This document shows, piece by piece, positions 9,706-17,230 of a stretch of DNA of 32,749 nt. The stretch comes from Candidatus Gastranaerophilales bacterium (GTDB taxonomy: Bacteria; Cyanobacteriota; Vampirovibrionia; Gastranaerophilales; Gastranaerophilaceae): positions 1 through 32,749 of the forward strand of contig CALVAW010000020.1 in NCBI GenBank assembly GCA_944325655.1, read 5' to 3'. The notes below the pieces were generated by a model. The model made no database searches. It saw only the letters and a program-made list of their open reading frames with translations, and was not told where the DNA came from. Positions within the stretch are counted from its first letter, which is position 1, and each line of letters opens with the position of its first letter. The position numbers and the translations under genes are program-made.

Positions 9706-10758
9706 ATGAAAAAAATTAAAATAAAGATTGGAGATGTTGAAATTGGCGGCGGGGCCCCTGTTTCAGTTCAATCTATGACCAATACCAAAACGGATGATAC
9801 AAAATCAACTTTAAATCAAATTGAAAAACTTTACAATGCCGGTTGTCAGATAGTTAGAGTTGCGGTTTTAAATAAAAAATGCGCCTCTGCATTGGGTGAA
9901 ATTGTAAAATATTCTCCTATTCCGGTTGTTGCCGATATTCATTTTGATTATCGACTTGCATTAACGGCAATGGATAACGGAATAAATGCTTTGAGATTAA
10001 ACCCCGGAAATATAGGAAAAATTGAGCACACCCAGAGAGTCGTTGAAATGGCAAAAAAAACCTTGACTCCTATCAGGATTGGTGTCAATGCCGGCTCTCT
10101 TGAAAAAGATTTATATGAAAATAAATCTTTGTCTTTGAAAGAAAAGATGGTTATTTCCGCTCAAAGACACATTGAAATACTTGAAAAATTAGATTTTAAT
10201 TTAATCAAAGTTTCGCTAAAATCATCTGATGTTATGACTACAATAAAGGCGTATCGAAAGATGTATGAGCTTAGTCCTTATCCGTTACATGTCGGTTTGA
10301 CGGAAGCAGGAACTTTAAGAGGCGGGGTTGTTAAGTCATCAATTGGTATCGGCACGCTTTTAGCAGAAGGGATTGGGGACACCATAAGAGTATCTTTAAC
10401 AGAAGATCCTGTTGAAGAGGTTAAGCTTGCGGTTCAGATTTTGAGAACATTAAATTTAAAAAAAGGCGGTGTTAATTTTATTTCATGCCCTACTTGCGGA
10501 AGAACTCAAATAGATTTAATCGGATTGGCAAAAAAAGTAGAAAATAAGTTTGCAGATTTGAATGCAAATATAACAATTGCAACTATGGGATGTCCCGTTA
10601 ATGGTCCAAAGGAAGCGGCAGGAGCTGATTACGGAATAGCAGGAGCAATAAATGAAGGATATATTTTCAAAAAAGGTCAAATGATAAAAAAAGTTTCTCA
10701 AGAGCATTTATTAGATGAACTTGAAAAAATTATTAAAACTGATTTAAAAATTTTGTAA
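9706..10758 (+). CDS. ispG: 4-hydroxy-3-methylbut-2-enyl diphosphate synthase (MEP pathway)
   Basis: IspG reduces methylerythritol cyclodiphosphate to HMBPP in isoprenoid synthesis, using a [4Fe-4S] cluster. The 350-residue protein is the compact bacterial form. TIM-barrel motifs include VSVQSMTNTKTDD (19-31), VVADIHFDYRLA (74-85) and LRLNPGNIG (96-104). Cluster ligands are Cys261 and Cys264 (SCPTCGR) and Cys296 (MGCPVNGP), with the catalytic Glu303. The usual NGPGEA motif reads NGPKEA here, a Gly to Lys change beside that Glu. GAGG lies about 13 bases before the ATG, rather far. It is divergent from the glycosyltransferase gene. Confidence 0.96.
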   Translation: MKKIKIKIGDVEIGGGAPVSVQSMTNTKTDDTKSTLNQIEKLYNAGCQIVRVAVLNKKCASALGEIVKYSPIPVVADIHFDYRLALTAMDNGINALRLNPGNIGKIEHTQRVVEMAKKTLTPIRIGVNAGSLEKDLYENKSLSLKEKMVISAQRHIEILEKLDFNLIKVSLKSSDVMTTIKAYRKMYELSPYPLHVGLTEAGTLRGGVVKSSIGIGTLLAEGIGDTIRVSLTEDPVEEVKLAVQILRTLNLKKGGVNFISCPTCGRTQIDLIGLAKKVENKFADLNANITIATMGCPVNGPKEAAGADYGIAGAINEGYIFKKGQMIKKVSQEHLLDELEKIIKTDLKIL

Positions 10759-10780
10759 AAAGAATAATATGGTATATAAT
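10753..10780 (+). promoter_or_regulatory. Promoter of small secreted protein gene
   Basis: TTGTAA (10753-10758), 16-base spacer, TATAAT (10775-10780). The -35 overlaps the ispG stop codon. The start would lie near 10787, giving a leader of about 33 bases with a GGGGAAG ribosome binding site. Confidence 0.6.
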
Positions 10781-10819
10781 ATAATCAAATCGGATAATTT
10801 TAGTTACAGGGGAAGTTTA

Positions 10820-11191
10820 ATGAAAAAAATATTAATTATGTCGGGACTTTTTTTGATAAGCACAGCAAGCTGTTTTGCTTATTTGAATGAAAGTACTTCA
10901 AGTGATGTTGAGACATTACGTGCTCAGGGTTTTAGCGAAAATATGCTGAGAGTTATAGATCTTGCAAATGAAAAAAATAAAGGTATAAACGGTAATTACG
11001 TAAGACATTTTCAACCAAAAAATCAATCAAAAAAATTAGGAGCTTATTCTAAAGTAAAGATTTATTTTGATCCGACACAAGATGACGGATTGTTTGGCGA
11101 ACATCAAATTAATTTTTCAAACAGCTGGATGGGAGATGAAAACTCATATTCTTCACCCTTGCAAGAAAAACAAGTTGTTGAGAATTTATAA
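10820..11191 (+). CDS. Small secreted protein, unknown function
   Basis: The ATG at 10820 is chosen over the ATG at 10769 because GGGGAAG lies just before it and the protein then opens with a classic signal peptide: MKKILIMSGLFLIS, with probable cleavage after SCFA (about residue 20). The upstream ATG would also overlap the promoter. The mature part, about 103 residues, is polar and has no recognised domain; it includes YFDPTQDDGLFG near 76-87. It should be exported across the cytoplasmic membrane. Its stop codon abuts the end of the convergent NuoN-like gene, and its terminator lies inside that gene. Confidence 0.75.
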   Translation: MKKILIMSGLFLISTASCFAYLNESTSSDVETLRAQGFSENMLRVIDLANEKNKGINGNYVRHFQPKNQSKKLGAYSKVKIYFDPTQDDGLFGEHQINFSNSWMGDENSYSSPLQEKQVVENL

Positions 11192-12568
11192 AAACAGGCT
11201 TATTGCACAAAATATTATAATTGAAAAGGAAACAATGTAATTCAACATTGTTTTCTTTTTGAATTTATCTTTTATTCTTTTTAAGTTTACGGTGTATAAG
11301 CTTTGAATTATTTTTAGTGAATTAATTAAAATTAAAATATTTGCAAGAGTTATTGCAAAAACCGCGCAAAAAGCCAGTTTGTCATAAGAATATACGGTTT
11401 TAAGAATTTCTGCTCCGTATTTAAGTATGCCGCTTGGTATTGTACAAGTTAATATAAGAAGCATTATTGAGAAAATAAGTGCAAAAAATTGATTATTAAA
11501 TGCGAGTCCTTCTATTGTTAATAAATTTATTTTTAGTGCTTTTAAGTTTATTTTTATTATGCAAAGCAATGAAAAAATTCCCATAATGCAGAATGCTAAA
11601 AGGGTAGAATATTTTATCGTTGTATTATTTGCGGACATAAACAAAGTATTTAGCAAACAAAATGAGGTGAGACAATAATTAGATTTAGCTAAAAATTTTG
11701 TGAGATTTTTTTGTTTCAAAGTCATGAGTCCAAAGTATGCGATTGTAAGCGTAAGAAACATGGTTATTGAAATTTGATATATTTCTCCGGTGAAGTTTGT
11801 GAATTTTGTAATGTTATTAAAACCTATAGTAGCCATCCAAGGTAAAAAACCAAATAATAAAATCGAGTAAGGTATGTTTGTTTTTGTGTTGTTAGCGGAA
11901 ATATAATTTGAAAAAGGAAACAGCCCTATTTTTAAGAAAAAGGCAAGGGTTAAACATACATTAATTATATTTAATTGAACATAGTCTTTTATCAGAAAAG
12001 TTAGTATGTAAAATCCAAAAAACAATACGCTTGCACAAATTCCAATTATTATAAAATTTGTTGAATAATATGCTTGTTTTTTTATTCTCATTTTTGAAGC
12101 AAATTTGTATATTAAGATTGTAAGGATGTCTAATAGCACATAAGTAATAAGTATATTTTCGCTTTTAATTAAAAAACCGCTTATAATAGCAATTAACAAT
12201 AATATAGAATTGATAACAGGTGTTTTGAATTTTATTTTTCTTGTAAGCTTGTAGGTGATAAAAATAAATGCAAGCAGAAAAATATAAATTGAAATTTTTA
12301 AACAAATTGTTTTTTTGTCGTTTGGTATATATTCTCCAATAGGAAAATGATACATTTCATTAAAATTTATTGAATTTGTTATTCCGATTGCTGCAAGTGT
12401 AATTATGCAAATTATAAATATAATGCAGGTTAGAAAGTCTGAAATTCTTTTTATATTTGTTTTTTTTGCAAAGAATATATATAAAATTGAATTCAATATT
12501 ATTCCTGCCAAACAAAAGAATTCACAAGAAAAATATGACAGCGTATTTTGATTTATTATATTTTGCAT
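11186..12568 (-). CDS. NuoN/NdhB-like antiporter-type membrane protein, divergent
   Basis: A 460-residue protein with about 13-14 predicted helices. It resembles complex I subunit N: NFIIIGICASVLFFG near residues 171-185 matches the NuoN segment KYFxLGAxASxxxxxG, and AFFLKIGLFPFSNY near 209-222 matches the motif with the central-helix lysine (Lys213). Lys291 in QKNLTKFLAKSNY matches the second conserved lysine. The helix-5 glutamate position reads Asp147 (VLLDILT). So this is the least degenerate of the trio. GGAGGG lies before the ATG, two bases after the previous gene's stop. No complex I redox subunit is nearby; the function in this organism is unknown. Confidence 0.75.
   Translation of the reverse strand: MQNIINQNTLSYFSCEFFCLAGIILNSILYIFFAKKTNIKRISDFLTCIIFIICIITLAAIGITNSINFNEMYHFPIGEYIPNDKKTICLKISIYIFLLAFIFITYKLTRKIKFKTPVINSILLLIAIISGFLIKSENILITYVLLDILTILIYKFASKMRIKKQAYYSTNFIIIGICASVLFFGFYILTFLIKDYVQLNIINVCLTLAFFLKIGLFPFSNYISANNTKTNIPYSILLFGFLPWMATIGFNNITKFTNFTGEIYQISITMFLTLTIAYFGLMTLKQKNLTKFLAKSNYCLTSFCLLNTLFMSANNTTIKYSTLLAFCIMGIFSLLCIIKINLKALKINLLTIEGLAFNNQFFALIFSIMLLILTCTIPSGILKYGAEILKTVYSYDKLAFCAVFAITLANILILINSLKIIQSLYTVNLKRIKDKFKKKTMLNYIVSFSIIIFCAISLFL
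11224..11260 (+). terminator. Terminator of secreted protein gene, inside the convergent coding region
   Basis: Fifteen-base arms (11224-11238, 11245-11259) with one G-T wobble, loop AATTCA, ending in TTTTCTTTTT. It serves the plus-strand gene but lies within the last 75 bases of the NuoN-like coding sequence. The minus strand has no matching T-run. Confidence 0.75.
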
Positions 12569-12570
12569 AT

Positions 12571-13998
12571 TTACAGCCCTCCGTTGAAAAAGCTTTGAGG
12601 AAATATTCCCGCAAGAATTATTGCCGCGGATAAAACAATAAGCGTAATTATTTGGTGATTTGAAAGTTCTGTTTCGTTTTTATATGATTTTTGCGGTTCT
12701 ATAAGTATTCTGTAAAACATGTTTAAAGCTGATAATGTTATTATAAAACAGGTTATAACACATATATAAGGTGCAAAATTTAATACTGTGCCGTCATAAT
12801 CTATTGAAAATATAATAATAAAGTTAATTAATGTAGCAGAAAATAGCGCCAGTGTGGGGACTTTTGCTATATTCATTATTGCAAAAATACTGAAAAATTT
12901 AATTAATTTGTTTTTTGAAGAAATTTTTGGTAATTGTGCTATTTCGTTTGTTTTAAATTTATATGAAATTAAATTTAAAGTTAAAAACACAAGAGTATAT
13001 GATAAGATAATTGCAATCGCCCCATATAAAAATGCAAGAATACCTTCATCTTCAAAAGAAAACAGAGTGAAAATATTTGTGGTTATGAAAACCAAGAAAC
13101 TTGAAAATGCATAATTTATGAGAGTTCTTTGTTTTAATGAAATGATAGCAAACCAAACAAGATTTAAAATCAAATAAGCCGCTATAAAATCTTCGTAATC
13201 ATAAAATAAATAATCAAATACAAAATATATTTTAATTAAAAGCGCATTTGCAATAATATTAAAGGTTAATATATTTATTGTGCTGATGTGATTGTTGGAG
13301 CTTGATTTTTCAATTTTTTCATTAAAAGGAGCAAGGTTAAAAAGCCTGCATATTATAATAAAAAATCCTATAAACGCATAAAGTATTGAACTGTTATTTA
13401 TATGATAGAGGTTTTGTGTTAGATTTGTGAAATTAAACGGGATTTCATTTAAAATAAAGAGCCTTGCAAAGTCATAAAAAATTAAAACACAACACGCTAA
13501 AAGAATTAAAATATCGGCTTTAAGTTGATTTAACAGTAAGTTTTTATTGTTGTATCGGTAGTTTTTTTTGAGAAGATAACTGATAAGAAAAACCCAAAAA
13601 ATTCCGCCTAAAGTAAGACATATATTATCTGACAATATGATTAAGTTTGTTAATCCTAAAATAGTACTTAAGGAACAATAGAATAATCTGCAAGATTTTT
13701 TAATAAATGTTTTTGAGATGATTGAGAATATAAAAAATAAAAAAGCCGTTAAAAAAGTAAATATTGAGGCGATCTCATCAAAAATAAAATTAAAATTAAA
13801 AAATGAAAAAGAATTGTTGTTTTCTTTGATTAATAAAAGAAAAGCAAGAATGAATTGAATAAAGAAAAAAGTTTTAGATATTCTTCTTATATAAATCGGG
13901 TTTTTTAAGAATGTCAGAATTCCGAGAAAAACGGCAAAAACAAACGGAATAACAAGATATATATAAAAAAGAAATTTTTCTAAAAAAAGGTCTAGCAT
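12571..13998 (-). CDS. NuoM/NdhD-like antiporter-type membrane protein, strongly degenerate
   Basis: A 475-residue protein of about 13-14 helices, placed as complex I subunit M by gene order and by weak motifs. SDNICLTLGGIFWVFLISYL near 123-142 corresponds to the NuoM region with FWE, but the glutamate is Val here. CRLFNLAPFNEK near 217-228 corresponds to the KxPxxPFH helix, with Arg218 near the lysine and the histidine lost. LLIKIYF (Lys256) and LKQRTLINYAFSS near 288-300 match later motifs, the latter without its lysine. It starts inside the end of the NuoL-like gene (ATGCTAG overlap) with GGGAG eight bases upstream, so translation is coupled. Family placement is inferred. Confidence 0.65.
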   Translation of the reverse strand: MLDLFLEKFLFYIYLVIPFVFAVFLGILTFLKNPIYIRRISKTFFFIQFILAFLLLIKENNNSFSFFNFNFIFDEIASIFTFLTAFLFFIFSIISKTFIKKSCRLFYCSLSTILGLTNLIILSDNICLTLGGIFWVFLISYLLKKNYRYNNKNLLLNQLKADILILLACCVLIFYDFARLFILNEIPFNFTNLTQNLYHINNSSILYAFIGFFIIICRLFNLAPFNEKIEKSSSNNHISTINILTFNIIANALLIKIYFVFDYLFYDYEDFIAAYLILNLVWFAIISLKQRTLINYAFSSFLVFITTNIFTLFSFEDEGILAFLYGAIAIILSYTLVFLTLNLISYKFKTNEIAQLPKISSKNKLIKFFSIFAIMNIAKVPTLALFSATLINFIIIFSIDYDGTVLNFAPYICVITCFIITLSALNMFYRILIEPQKSYKNETELSNHQIITLIVLSAAIILAGIFPQSFFNGGL

Positions 13999-15410
13999 TT
14001 ATATCTCCCAAAAAGTGCTATAAATATTGCCAATAGTGTAAATAACACAAAAATAAACAAAATGATTCTTATGATTTTTGTGCTATCTTTTTTTGTGATT
14101 CTTAATATCATAAATGATGCCGTTGCATTTAATATTTTTATCGGAATTATGATTATGTTTTGCACTATATTTTCGTTAATTATATTTGCAATATCCGAAA
14201 TTTTATTCGGAATTTTTTCAAATAAAATAATGTGCATTTTTTCAAGAAAATAGCCCTTGTATTTTGAAATTATTGCTTTATTTAAGCTGCTCTTGTCTTT
14301 TATAAAAAGATACATTAAAACAAATAAAGTAATAAAATTGAAAATTAAGTAAATTATAAAAATGCTGTTTTGTTTTGAAAACAGATACAGTGTTAAGAAA
14401 AACACATTTAATATTGATATAAAATGTCCGAATATTATTTTTAAATTTTTTTCAAAAAGCGTTGCTGCTAATGAAACTATTCCGGAGAAAATAAAGATGA
14501 TAATTAAGTAATCCTGTAAATTATAATACAGTTCTATAAAGGGAATGGTTCTGAAAAAAATATAAATTCCAATCAAAGAATTTGCAACTGTTACAGAAGA
14601 CAAATATAAAAGATTTGAAGAATTTGCCATAAAACTACAATAACAGCCGAAAGGAAATATAAATAATCTGCTCATAAAGGCTATGATAAAACCTGCCGTA
14701 GTTATTTTAAATTCTATTGGCGTGCTTATTCCGTACGTGTAGCTTGCCAAAACGTCTAATTCGTTAAAATTCAGAGATGTTGAATTAATGTATCCTTCAG
14801 AAAGTATCGCATATTTGAATAAGATTAATATGCTTATTAAAACAGAAAAATCCCCTAATGTATGAATTCTTTGAAATCTGGTTATATTGAAATTGACTGT
14901 TGTTTTGTAAACGTCAAAATATGAATATATAAAAATAACCATACCTGTTAAACAGAGAAATAAGAACATTTGAAACAGGTTTGATGAGGCAAAAAACATA
15001 TATATGCAAAAAGATAGTGCAGATAAAAAAATGTAAAATCTTTGCTTTGTGAATAGGAATTTTTTGTTTTTGTCAAAGTATAGTTTAGAATATATTGCAA
15101 TAAGAGTAAATATAAAACTTGAAAACAAAAGGAATAATATATTTTCTGCATTTATTATAATCCCGGCATTGAGATTGATTTTTCGAATATTAAATAAGAA
15201 CAAATCAATATTAATACTTGAATTTTCTTTTATTATAAGTGCTGTTTGAACGGTAAAAATAAATAAGCTTAATATGTTTATTGCAATAGAGCCGGTATTT
15301 AAAATTTTTTTATTTATGTATGATAAACTTATTCTTGATATAAAAAGATACAACGCATAAAAAAGCGGAAGAAATATTGCTGTTAAACAACTTATAATAC
15401 TCATATCCAT
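13992..15410 (-). CDS. NuoL/NdhF-like antiporter-type membrane protein, degenerate
   Basis: A 472-residue protein; NuoL is normally over 600. Homology is visible in IYSKLYFDKNKK near 106-117 (NuoL HxYSxGYM region), NLFQMFLFLCLTGMVIFIYS near 144-163 (NuoL NxxxxxxxWExVGLxSYLLI) and IHTLGDF near 182-188 (NRxGD). The helix-5 Trp-Glu pair is lost. FMSRLFIFPFGCY near 245-257 aligns with GKSAQFPLHTW, with Arg248 replacing the key lysine; the ALIHAATM histidine is also absent. A long helical stretch (about 370-440) and a last membrane helix may be a shortened lateral helix. First gene of the L-M-N operon, with a predicted leaderless start. A second ATG at codon 3 is an alternative. Confidence 0.7.
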   Translation of the reverse strand: MDMSIISCLTAIFLPLFYALYLFISRISLSYINKKILNTGSIAINILSLFIFTVQTALIIKENSSINIDLFLFNIRKINLNAGIIINAENILFLLFSSFIFTLIAIYSKLYFDKNKKFLFTKQRFYIFLSALSFCIYMFFASSNLFQMFLFLCLTGMVIFIYSYFDVYKTTVNFNITRFQRIHTLGDFSVLISILILFKYAILSEGYINSTSLNFNELDVLASYTYGISTPIEFKITTAGFIIAFMSRLFIFPFGCYCSFMANSSNLLYLSSVTVANSLIGIYIFFRTIPFIELYYNLQDYLIIIFIFSGIVSLAATLFEKNLKIIFGHFISILNVFFLTLYLFSKQNSIFIIYLIFNFITLFVLMYLFIKDKSSLNKAIISKYKGYFLEKMHIILFEKIPNKISDIANIINENIVQNIIIIPIKILNATASFMILRITKKDSTKIIRIILFIFVLFTLLAIFIALFGRYKC

Positions 15411-15445: not shown

Positions 15446-15526
15446 ACTTTTTTAATATAAAGTTTATTTTAAAAAGCTTTTGAGCTAAGATTGAGGTATA
15501 ACTATTTAACGGGAGTACAGATAATT

Positions 15527-17230
15527 ATGAAAATGTCGCAATTATTTTTGCAAACTTTAAGAGAATTTCCAAATGATGCTGAGGCTATTTCTCATAAGTT
15601 GCTTGTAAGAGCGGGATATATAAAGAAACTGGCAAACGGTATATATACCTATTTGCCGCTTGCGCAAAGAGTTTTAAATAAAATTTCAAATATAGTAAGA
15701 GAAGAAATGAATTCAACGGGCGCTCAAGAAATGTTAATGCCTTTTGTTCAACCTGCCGAGTTGTGGCAAAAATCGGGCAGATGGAATGTCTACGGAAAAG
15801 AGCTTTTAAGATGTGTTGACAGGCATGAAAACCAGATGTGCTTAGCACCAACCCATGAAGAAGTTGTTACTTCTGTTGTTGCAGATATTGTTAATTCATA
15901 TAAACAACTTCCTTTGAATGTATATCACATACAGTTGAAATTTAGGGATGAAATTCGTCCGAGATTTGGTCTTTTGAGAGGAAGAGAATTTATAATGAAA
16001 GATGCATACAGTTTTCACACTTCTCAAGAAGATTTAGATAGAGAATATGAAGTTATGGGTAGAACCTATACAAATATTTTCAAAAGATGCGGCTTGGATA
16101 CTCGTGCTGTACAGTCTGATTCGGGAGCAATCGGCGGCAGCGTGTCTCATGAATATATGGTGTTAACCGATACTGCAGTTGGTGAAAACGATGTATTTTA
16201 TTGTGATGAGTGCGGATATAGCGCAAATTCAAATCATGCCGATTCGTTTTTACCGGTTGAAATTGTTGACGGTGGTTTTGTTGAAGAAAAATTGATTGAT
16301 ACTCCGAATGTTAAAACCATTGCTGAATTGTCTGAATTTTTGAATGTTGATTCAAACTGCATTTTAAAAGCTGTTGCATACATTGCAGATTCAAAACCTG
16401 TTATTGCAATGATTAGAGGCGATAAAGAAATTGAGGAGACAAAATTATTAAATGCTCTCAGTGCTCTTGAAATTCGTCCTATGGAAAATGACGAAATAAT
16501 TTCATTATTAAATTCTTATGCCGGTTTTATTTCATATCGTGATGTTGATGCATCTAAAGTTAAAGTTCTTTTTGACAAGTCTGCAAAAGGTATGAAAAAT
16601 TTTGTTCTTGGTGCAAATGTGAAAGATAAGCACTTTGTAGGTTCAAATTTACCTCAAGGGATTCAATTTGTCGATATTTCTTGCGTTAAAGCCGGCGAAT
16701 ATTGTCCTGTTTGTAAGAAACCTTTAAAAATGACCAGAGGTATTGAAGTCGGCAATATTTTTCAATTGGGTACTAAATATTCAAAACCGATGAATGCTTG
16801 CTATACTGATGCGGAAGGGCAACTCAAACCTTATATAATGGGTTGCTACGGTATAGGTATTACAAGGACGATGGCTGCTGCGGTTGAAAAATATCACGAT
16901 GATTTTGGAATTATTTGGCCAAAAGAAATCGCTCCGTATCATGTTGATATTGTGCCTGTTAACATTGATGATGAAGTTCAATCTAAAGTTGCTTATGATT
17001 TATATGAAAAGTTGAATAATCTTAAGATAGAAACTGTTATTGATGACAGAACAGATAGAGCCGGTGTTAAGTTTAAAGATGCCGATTTGATAGGTTTTCC
17101 TGTCAGAATAACGGTTGGTAAAACCATATCCGAAGGACTTGTAGAATTTAAAACCAGAAATGACGGAGTAGTGATTAAATTGACTCCCGATGAAGCGATT
17201 AAAAAATGCCAAGAAATCCTCTTAAATTAA
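15527..17230 (+). CDS. proS: Prolyl-tRNA synthetase
   Basis: Charges tRNA(Pro) with proline. The ATG at 15527 is used rather than a TTG at 15491: GGGAG lies 11 bases upstream, and family members begin with a short MxxSQ leader before LREFPNDAEAISHKLL. The resulting 567 residues fit the bacterial-type enzyme. Class II motifs are clear: motif 1 around LPLAQRVLNKISNI, motif 2 in FRDEIRPRFGLLRGREF, and motif 3 in CYGIGITRTM. The insertion (editing) domain lies between motifs 2 and 3, and an anticodon-binding domain closes the protein. The last 25 bases overlap the gatD-like gene, which suggests cotranscription. Confidence 0.97.
   Translation: MKMSQLFLQTLREFPNDAEAISHKLLVRAGYIKKLANGIYTYLPLAQRVLNKISNIVREEMNSTGAQEMLMPFVQPAELWQKSGRWNVYGKELLRCVDRHENQMCLAPTHEEVVTSVVADIVNSYKQLPLNVYHIQLKFRDEIRPRFGLLRGREFIMKDAYSFHTSQEDLDREYEVMGRTYTNIFKRCGLDTRAVQSDSGAIGGSVSHEYMVLTDTAVGENDVFYCDECGYSANSNHADSFLPVEIVDGGFVEEKLIDTPNVKTIAELSEFLNVDSNCILKAVAYIADSKPVIAMIRGDKEIEETKLLNALSALEIRPMENDEIISLLNSYAGFISYRDVDASKVKVLFDKSAKGMKNFVLGANVKDKHFVGSNLPQGIQFVDISCVKAGEYCPVCKKPLKMTRGIEVGNIFQLGTKYSKPMNACYTDAEGQLKPYIMGCYGIGITRTMAAAVEKYHDDFGIIWPKEIAPYHVDIVPVNIDDEVQSKVAYDLYEKLNNLKIETVIDDRTDRAGVKFKDADLIGFPVRITVGKTISEGLVEFKTRNDGVVIKLTPDEAIKKCQEILLN

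Follow-up and report, generated by a model that had tools for sequence, protein, structure and literature searches.

Three antiporter-like subunits, very probably descended from complex I, are retained under purifying selection in gut Gastranaerophilales

The window analysed here (the whole stretch of 32,749 nucleotides) corresponds to contig C20 in a genome of 1.69 Mb with 98.8% completeness. Its minus strand carries, at 11186-15410, three co-directional and intact ORFs in the order nuoL-M-N, overlapping or 2 bp apart (hereafter L, M and N, or the trio). The features of the locus are as follows:

9706-10758, plus strand: ispG, a conserved flank marking the locus
10769-11191, plus strand: small ORF, conserved and convergent with N; present also where the trio is absent
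11186-12568, minus strand: NuoN-like subunit, 460 aa
11930-11932, minus strand: N Lys213, the TM7 Lys, invariant (25/25 genus sequences)
12128-12130, minus strand: N Asp147, in place of the TM5 Glu; most genus sequences have Asp or Glu here
12571-13998, minus strand: NuoM-like subunit, 475 aa, with a full 14-helix antiporter fold (predicted)
13345-13347, minus strand: M Arg218, within one residue of the TM7 Lys position
13591-13596, minus strand: M Trp135-Val136, Phe-Trp-Val at TM5, Glu lost
13992-15410, minus strand: NuoL-like subunit, 472 aa; TM1-11 followed, after an internal deletion of about TM12-15, by the C-terminal lateral helix and the last TM
14010-14084, minus strand: last transmembrane helix of L (TM16-like), residues about 443-467
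14085-14249, minus strand: lateral (HL-like) amphipathic helix of L, residues about 388-442, with invariant F397 and E398
14250-14297, minus strand: junction of the missing internal NuoL helices in L, residues 372-387
14612-14666, minus strand: TM7-TM8 cytoplasmic loop of L, with the genus-specific conserved motif P253..SF..NSSN266
14667-14669, minus strand: L Arg248, at the TM7 Lys (K229) position; basic (R/K) in 25/25 genus sequences
15491-17230, plus strand: proS, the conserved flank on the opposite side of the trio

A sequence-only reading of this DNA had described three overlapping genes in the NuoL-NuoM-NuoN order, and each ORF indeed has its own family as top NCBIfam model: NuoL for L (E = 2.6e-7, first 200 residues), NuoM for M (E = 1e-11, full length) and NuoN for N (E = 1.6e-7, full length), all three far below the curated cut-offs. 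Pfam by itself is misleading for the trio, as L and M resemble almost nothing in it and N alone comes near the PF00361 cut-off. The large internal deletion in L goes beyond what had been described.

AlphaFold2 predictions of L and M were made as single chains, with ten window and locus sequences as input. The M model (pLDDT 86, pTM 0.91) has NdhD and NuoM as its best PDB matches (TM 0.86, NdhD top), and the L model (pLDDT 73, pTM 0.76) aligns with NuoL (8e9g_L) over 378 residues at 3.1 A (Z 36.6); the antiporter fold implied by the sequence-only reading is thus predicted for both proteins. Model confidence is low in the lateral helix region of L, and the assignment of this helix therefore rests on sequence alignment, in which both it and the terminal TM are found. 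Antiporter-subunit homology, predicted fold (L and M) and L-M-N order are all those of complex I, and the locus is shared with a full nuo operon (see below).

In each complex I antiporter-like subunit the relay comprises a TM5 Glu, a TM7 Lys, a TM8 Lys or His and a TM12 Lys or Glu; what is left of it in the trio is N Asp147 and Lys213 together with basic residues at TM7. The loss of the TM5 Glu from L and M, proposed previously, was confirmed by alignment: Cys153 of L stands at the E144 position and the Glu is absent from 25/25 genus sequences, while M reads Phe-Trp-Val and its genus counterparts lack the TM5 Glu and, in most cases, the TM12 Glu. Arg248 of L had been taken to replace the central lysine; the arginine and its conservation stand, but the position is that of the TM7 pair lysine and not the central (TM8) site. 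An arginine near the lysine position in M had also been recognised correctly, and Arg218 can be assigned to the TM7 Lys position only to within one residue, because different runs aligned the TM5 and TM7 region of M one column apart. For N, the previously named Asp147 and Lys213 are both relay positions, although Lys213 belongs to TM7 rather than to the centre; Lys291, named with them, lies by the TM9-10 loop, outside the proton path. The TM8 Lys position of N is Pro243 (Pro in 24/25 genus sequences) and its TM12 Lys is missing in most. Given the loss of the TM5 Glu in L and M, the disappearance of most TM8 and TM12 charges across the trio and the removal of part of the second channel of L by its internal deletion, it is very unlikely that an unbroken proton relay remains.

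Mutagenesis of the Mrp cation/proton antiporter gives a measure of what these losses mean, since both of its large subunits need their TM5 Glu and TM7 Lys for antiport: MrpA E140A and K223A and MrpD E137A and K219A abolish it, whereas MrpD E137D only raises the Km (PMC5703873). With its relay residues lost, the trio is unlikely to be a pump or an ordinary antiporter. A Mrp-like secondary antiporter or an ion channel, in which the redox-free arm would exchange a cation for protons or leak one with N as the conducting subunit, is the leading alternative. N retains a TM5 Asp, which recalls the mild MrpD E137D change, and an invariant TM7 Lys, and L and M are basic at TM7; the J-K-L-M-N arms of relatives resemble the Mrp core (MrpA corresponding to L, MrpC to K and MrpD to M or N; PMC5703873); and in B. 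subtilis the deletion of mrpD or mrpA can, in certain conditions, be rescued by NuoN or NuoL, respectively, from E. coli (PMC4938563). Against this, the trio lacks the TM5 Glu in both L (Cys153) and M (Val136), with Arg at TM7 in each, the very TM5 position at which Mrp mutants lose antiport; N has lost its TM8 Lys and in most genomes its TM12 Lys; and no Mrp-type partner was found. A PF00361 search of the genome returned just three genes, N itself and two from a hydrogenase-like cluster on contig C3, and no MrpC/NuoK-type or NuoJ-type gene scored over cut-off in 28 genus genomes. On balance we consider Mrp-like exchange or leakage unlikely.

The sequence-only reading had also stated that no redox, NuoK, NuoJ or NuoH gene accompanies the trio, and this extends to the genome as a whole with the exception of that separate cluster, which supplies the only homologues of redox and quinone-side subunits (B, C, D, H, I), namely Ehr-type H and D:

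13407-19860 of L004 (G000, contig C3): Ehr-type hydrogenase-related cluster with HyfB, C, E, F and G-like genes

The large subunit of the cluster has no CxxC motif, which identifies it as Ehr type, and its C subunit is the sole NuoH-type gene in the genome. An Ehr-like complex has already been described for Melainabacteria (PMC3787301), and the cluster occurs in most, though not all, genus genomes. No intact nuo set was found elsewhere in the genome. The trio is not a redox-driven pump, since it comes with no redox genes as partners; and because Glu and Lys are intact in the antiporter subunits of this genome's Ehr cluster, the relay loss is specific to the trio. The presence of a common Ehr cluster raises the idea that the trio is an extra antiporter module of that complex encoded at a distance. 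The two lie on different contigs, however, and do not strictly co-occur: G165 (99% complete), G150 and G156 have the trio and no detectable Ehr large subunit, and G084 has Ehr and no trio. The Ehr complex moreover has intact antiporter subunits of its own, and in relatives J-K-L-M-N arms are retained in genomes with no detected NuoD-like gene at all (g33, G248), so that membership of the Ehr complex is improbable.

L was found in 25 of the 28 genus genomes, always full length and with no internal stop; M and N lie beside it in the genus loci read, and wherever the contig extends that far the trio sits between ispG with the small ORF and proS. In G084 both flanks are present with nothing between them, a clean empty site, and L gave no match in G021. 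A search of genome contigs with the L alignment yielded nine loci with a related L protein, all in MAGs and most titled Candidatus Gastranaerophilales; a single-protein scan of assembled genome contigs with M gave no match. The small ORF at 10769-11191 is secreted-looking, overlaps the end of nuoN by 6 bases and lies next to ispG throughout the genus and also in some relatives; it was rejected as a partner of the trio since it remains in G084, which has none.

For close pairs dN/dS was 0.10-0.16 for L, 0.12-0.23 for M and 0.12-0.20 for N, compared with 0.02-0.2 for neighbouring genes. The trio values exceed those of ispG or proS and are far below 1, indicating genes that evolve fast yet are constrained; the trio is retained under purifying selection. 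That it might be a functionless remnant decaying towards pseudogenisation could be argued from the rapid divergence of L (35-63% identity to the window copy within the genus), the lost residues, the clean loss in G084 and the missing match in G021. Neither relaxed selection nor broken frames were found, however: 25/25 L copies are open, dN/dS lies within 0.10-0.23 for all close pairs, and motifs new to the genus are invariant, all of which makes a decaying remnant highly improbable. The related idea that these are decaying duplicates was rejected on the open L copies and the dN/dS range and because no intact nuo set was found elsewhere in the genome.

The pattern of constraint within L is informative. 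Conserved motifs in the genus (FTKQR, YFD..K, SF..NSSN, FEKN.KIIFG and GF.LE..HI..FE) go with a conservation of 0.71 in the cytoplasmic loops, the highest of any part, versus 0.59 in the TMs and 0.50 on the outer side, the cytoplasmic side being assigned from the predicted model and the established topology of complex I. Equivalent L positions in seven family complexes have no such trend (0.51 cytoplasmic, 0.59 TMs, 0.50 outer). The difference for the cytoplasmic loops was attained by 5 of 471 label shifts, in what is a rough test, and cytoplasmic-face conservation looked for likewise in M was not found.

The origin of the trio can be read from the family. At the same ispG-proS locus G037 carries a full nuoA-B-C-D-H-I-J-K-L-M-N operon of 11 subunits, a form of complex I already known (PMC3787301), and G066, G115 and genus g36 carry J-K-L-M-N there. 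A survey of 356 family genomes, with true NuoD defined by E at or below 1e-54, found NuoM with no true NuoD in g1, g6, g9, g17, g20, g23, g33, g36 and G081. Architectures were read from the loci of all of these except g9: A-H-J-K-L-M-N in g17 and G081; J-K-L-M-N in g36 and g23; J-K-L-M-N with a 385-residue L in g6, g33 and g20; and L-M-N in g1. G126 (L033) has an otherwise complete nuo operon in which I alone is missing, and is possibly the first step of the series. In a PheT and ProS tree redox-less arms are interspersed with full-complex genomes at four or more distinct positions, which, if the redox module was lost and never regained, puts at least four independent losses in the family; g17 could share a single loss with the g6/g33/g20 group or have one of its own, support there being weak (60-74). 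NuoL was internally deleted three times (g1, 472 aa; G081, 478 aa; g6/g33/g20, 385 aa), with the lateral helix and last TM retained every time. Every full complex read retains NuoK Glu36, as do G126, G081, G052 and the contig-cut G106; the residue is lost in all J-K-L-M-N lineages (the contig-cut G106 apart) and in G016; its loss in the J-K-L-M-N lineages is expected since the quinone-driven axis is gone. Separately, in J-K-L-M-N lineages the TM12 Glu407 of NuoM has become Lys (g6, g33, g20) or Arg/Lys (g36), and NuoM E407K is a change tested in E. coli (PMC9271201).

We therefore hold it very probable that the trio descends vertically from an 11-subunit complex I and has been kept by selection. 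Strong selection, and similar cuts repeated independently in relatives, mean that the altered arm pieces must serve something other than classical redox-driven proton pumping. On this point the sequence-only reading, which preferred a repurposed arm or a scaffold to a normal proton pump, agrees with the purifying selection, genus-wide retention, relay loss and arms with no NuoD-like subunit, while its other suggestion, a new antiporter, fits poorly with the missing TM5 Glu in L and M. It also underestimated the case, the trio being the end point of a family-wide and repeated reduction of complex I.

Synteny, the intermediate architectures and the dN/dS values show that this lineage lost the redox subunits B, C, D and I, the quinone-side A and H and the linkers J and K stepwise and kept L-M-N, the distal part of the membrane arm, under purifying selection. 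L, M and N most likely still assemble as one block, because the antiporter fold (predicted for L and M) and the lateral helix of L, which runs along M and N in complex I, are retained; in E. coli, end truncations of NuoL leave a complex that is fragile and has negligible activity (PMC3274701), in keeping with a part for this helix in assembly. The conserved cytoplasmic face of L may dock a partner or ligand, making the trio a membrane platform that would carry out no transport, and the Asp147-Lys213 pair of N may be its remaining ion-sensitive element. We favour a docking platform over passive ion exchange because the cytoplasmic loops of L became its most conserved part; this putative role, ion-sensitive element included, is put forward tentatively and at slightly less than even odds, as the conservation is confined to L by comparison with M, the shift test is rough, and the basic residues that all three proteins keep at TM7 would be in keeping with ion handling of some kind. 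The trio is, on these grounds, a selected, redox-uncoupled membrane arm for which pumping is very unlikely, and we give the whole explanation, a reduced arm under selection serving as a non-pumping membrane platform, a rough probability of 0.55. The wider proposition, that gut Gastranaerophilales repeatedly made complex I into a redox-free membrane arm with a new conserved function, the end state in this genus being an L-M-N block with a cut-down NuoL acting as a non-pumping platform, seems to us evenly balanced.

Comparison with known systems places the trio closest to its direct ancestor, the 11-subunit complex I of gut Melainabacteria (NDH-1 with the NADH module absent), with which it shares L-M-N order, fold and locus (G037) and from which it differs in having no A, B, C, D, H, I, J or K, an internally deleted L and lost relay residues. 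The Mrp antiporters (CPA3) are likewise redox-free assemblies of NuoL/M/N-type subunits, whereas the trio has no MrpC-type gene or further MrpA/D genes that could be found, lacks the TM5 Glu in L and M, and is derived from complex I by loss. Ehr and group 4 hydrogenase-related complexes also contain NuoL-type subunits, one being present in the same genome, but have catalytic-like and H-like subunits and intact antiporter residues, none of which the trio has, and the trio is not genetically tied to Ehr. The DAB/MpsAB carbon transporters offer another case of a NuoL-type protein, DabB, that has taken on a new task free of redox partners; they consist of one NuoL-type subunit and a DabA partner as opposed to three subunits, and no DabA (PF10070) was found among the window genes scanned. 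The open-licence literature yielded the 11-subunit and Ehr-like complexes of Melainabacteria and no report of a membrane-arm-only complex I.

The graded series in related genomes (full, no I, A-H-J-K-L-M-N, J-K-L-M-N, L-M-N) amounts to a natural dissection of complex I with repeated outcomes, and makes the role of antiporter-like subunits with no redox drive directly testable. Once electron transfer is gone NuoI is dispensable, then B, C and D, then A and H, then J and K, and NuoK Glu36 decays along with these losses; M, N and the lateral helix of L are what is retained. For metabolic annotation, NuoL, NuoM and NuoN matches in these gut genomes do not equate to a working complex I. A redox-free arm with a new function would, if true, reverse the usual story in which complex I arose as an antiporter with added redox parts.

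Three further observations were made in the family genomes. In genus g29 (L034 2701-3678, L035 3161-4138 and other loci) nuoB is about 325 aa and a separate nuoC ORF is absent, resembling a natural NuoB-NuoC fusion. NuoM matches occur in open frames of about 970 aa in G222:C7, G232:C2 and G233:C7, perhaps through fusion of neighbouring antiporter genes or as a frame-counting effect. At L030 1477-6031 (G127) four tandem, similar membrane-protein-like ORFs are inserted between coaX and a GATase gene.
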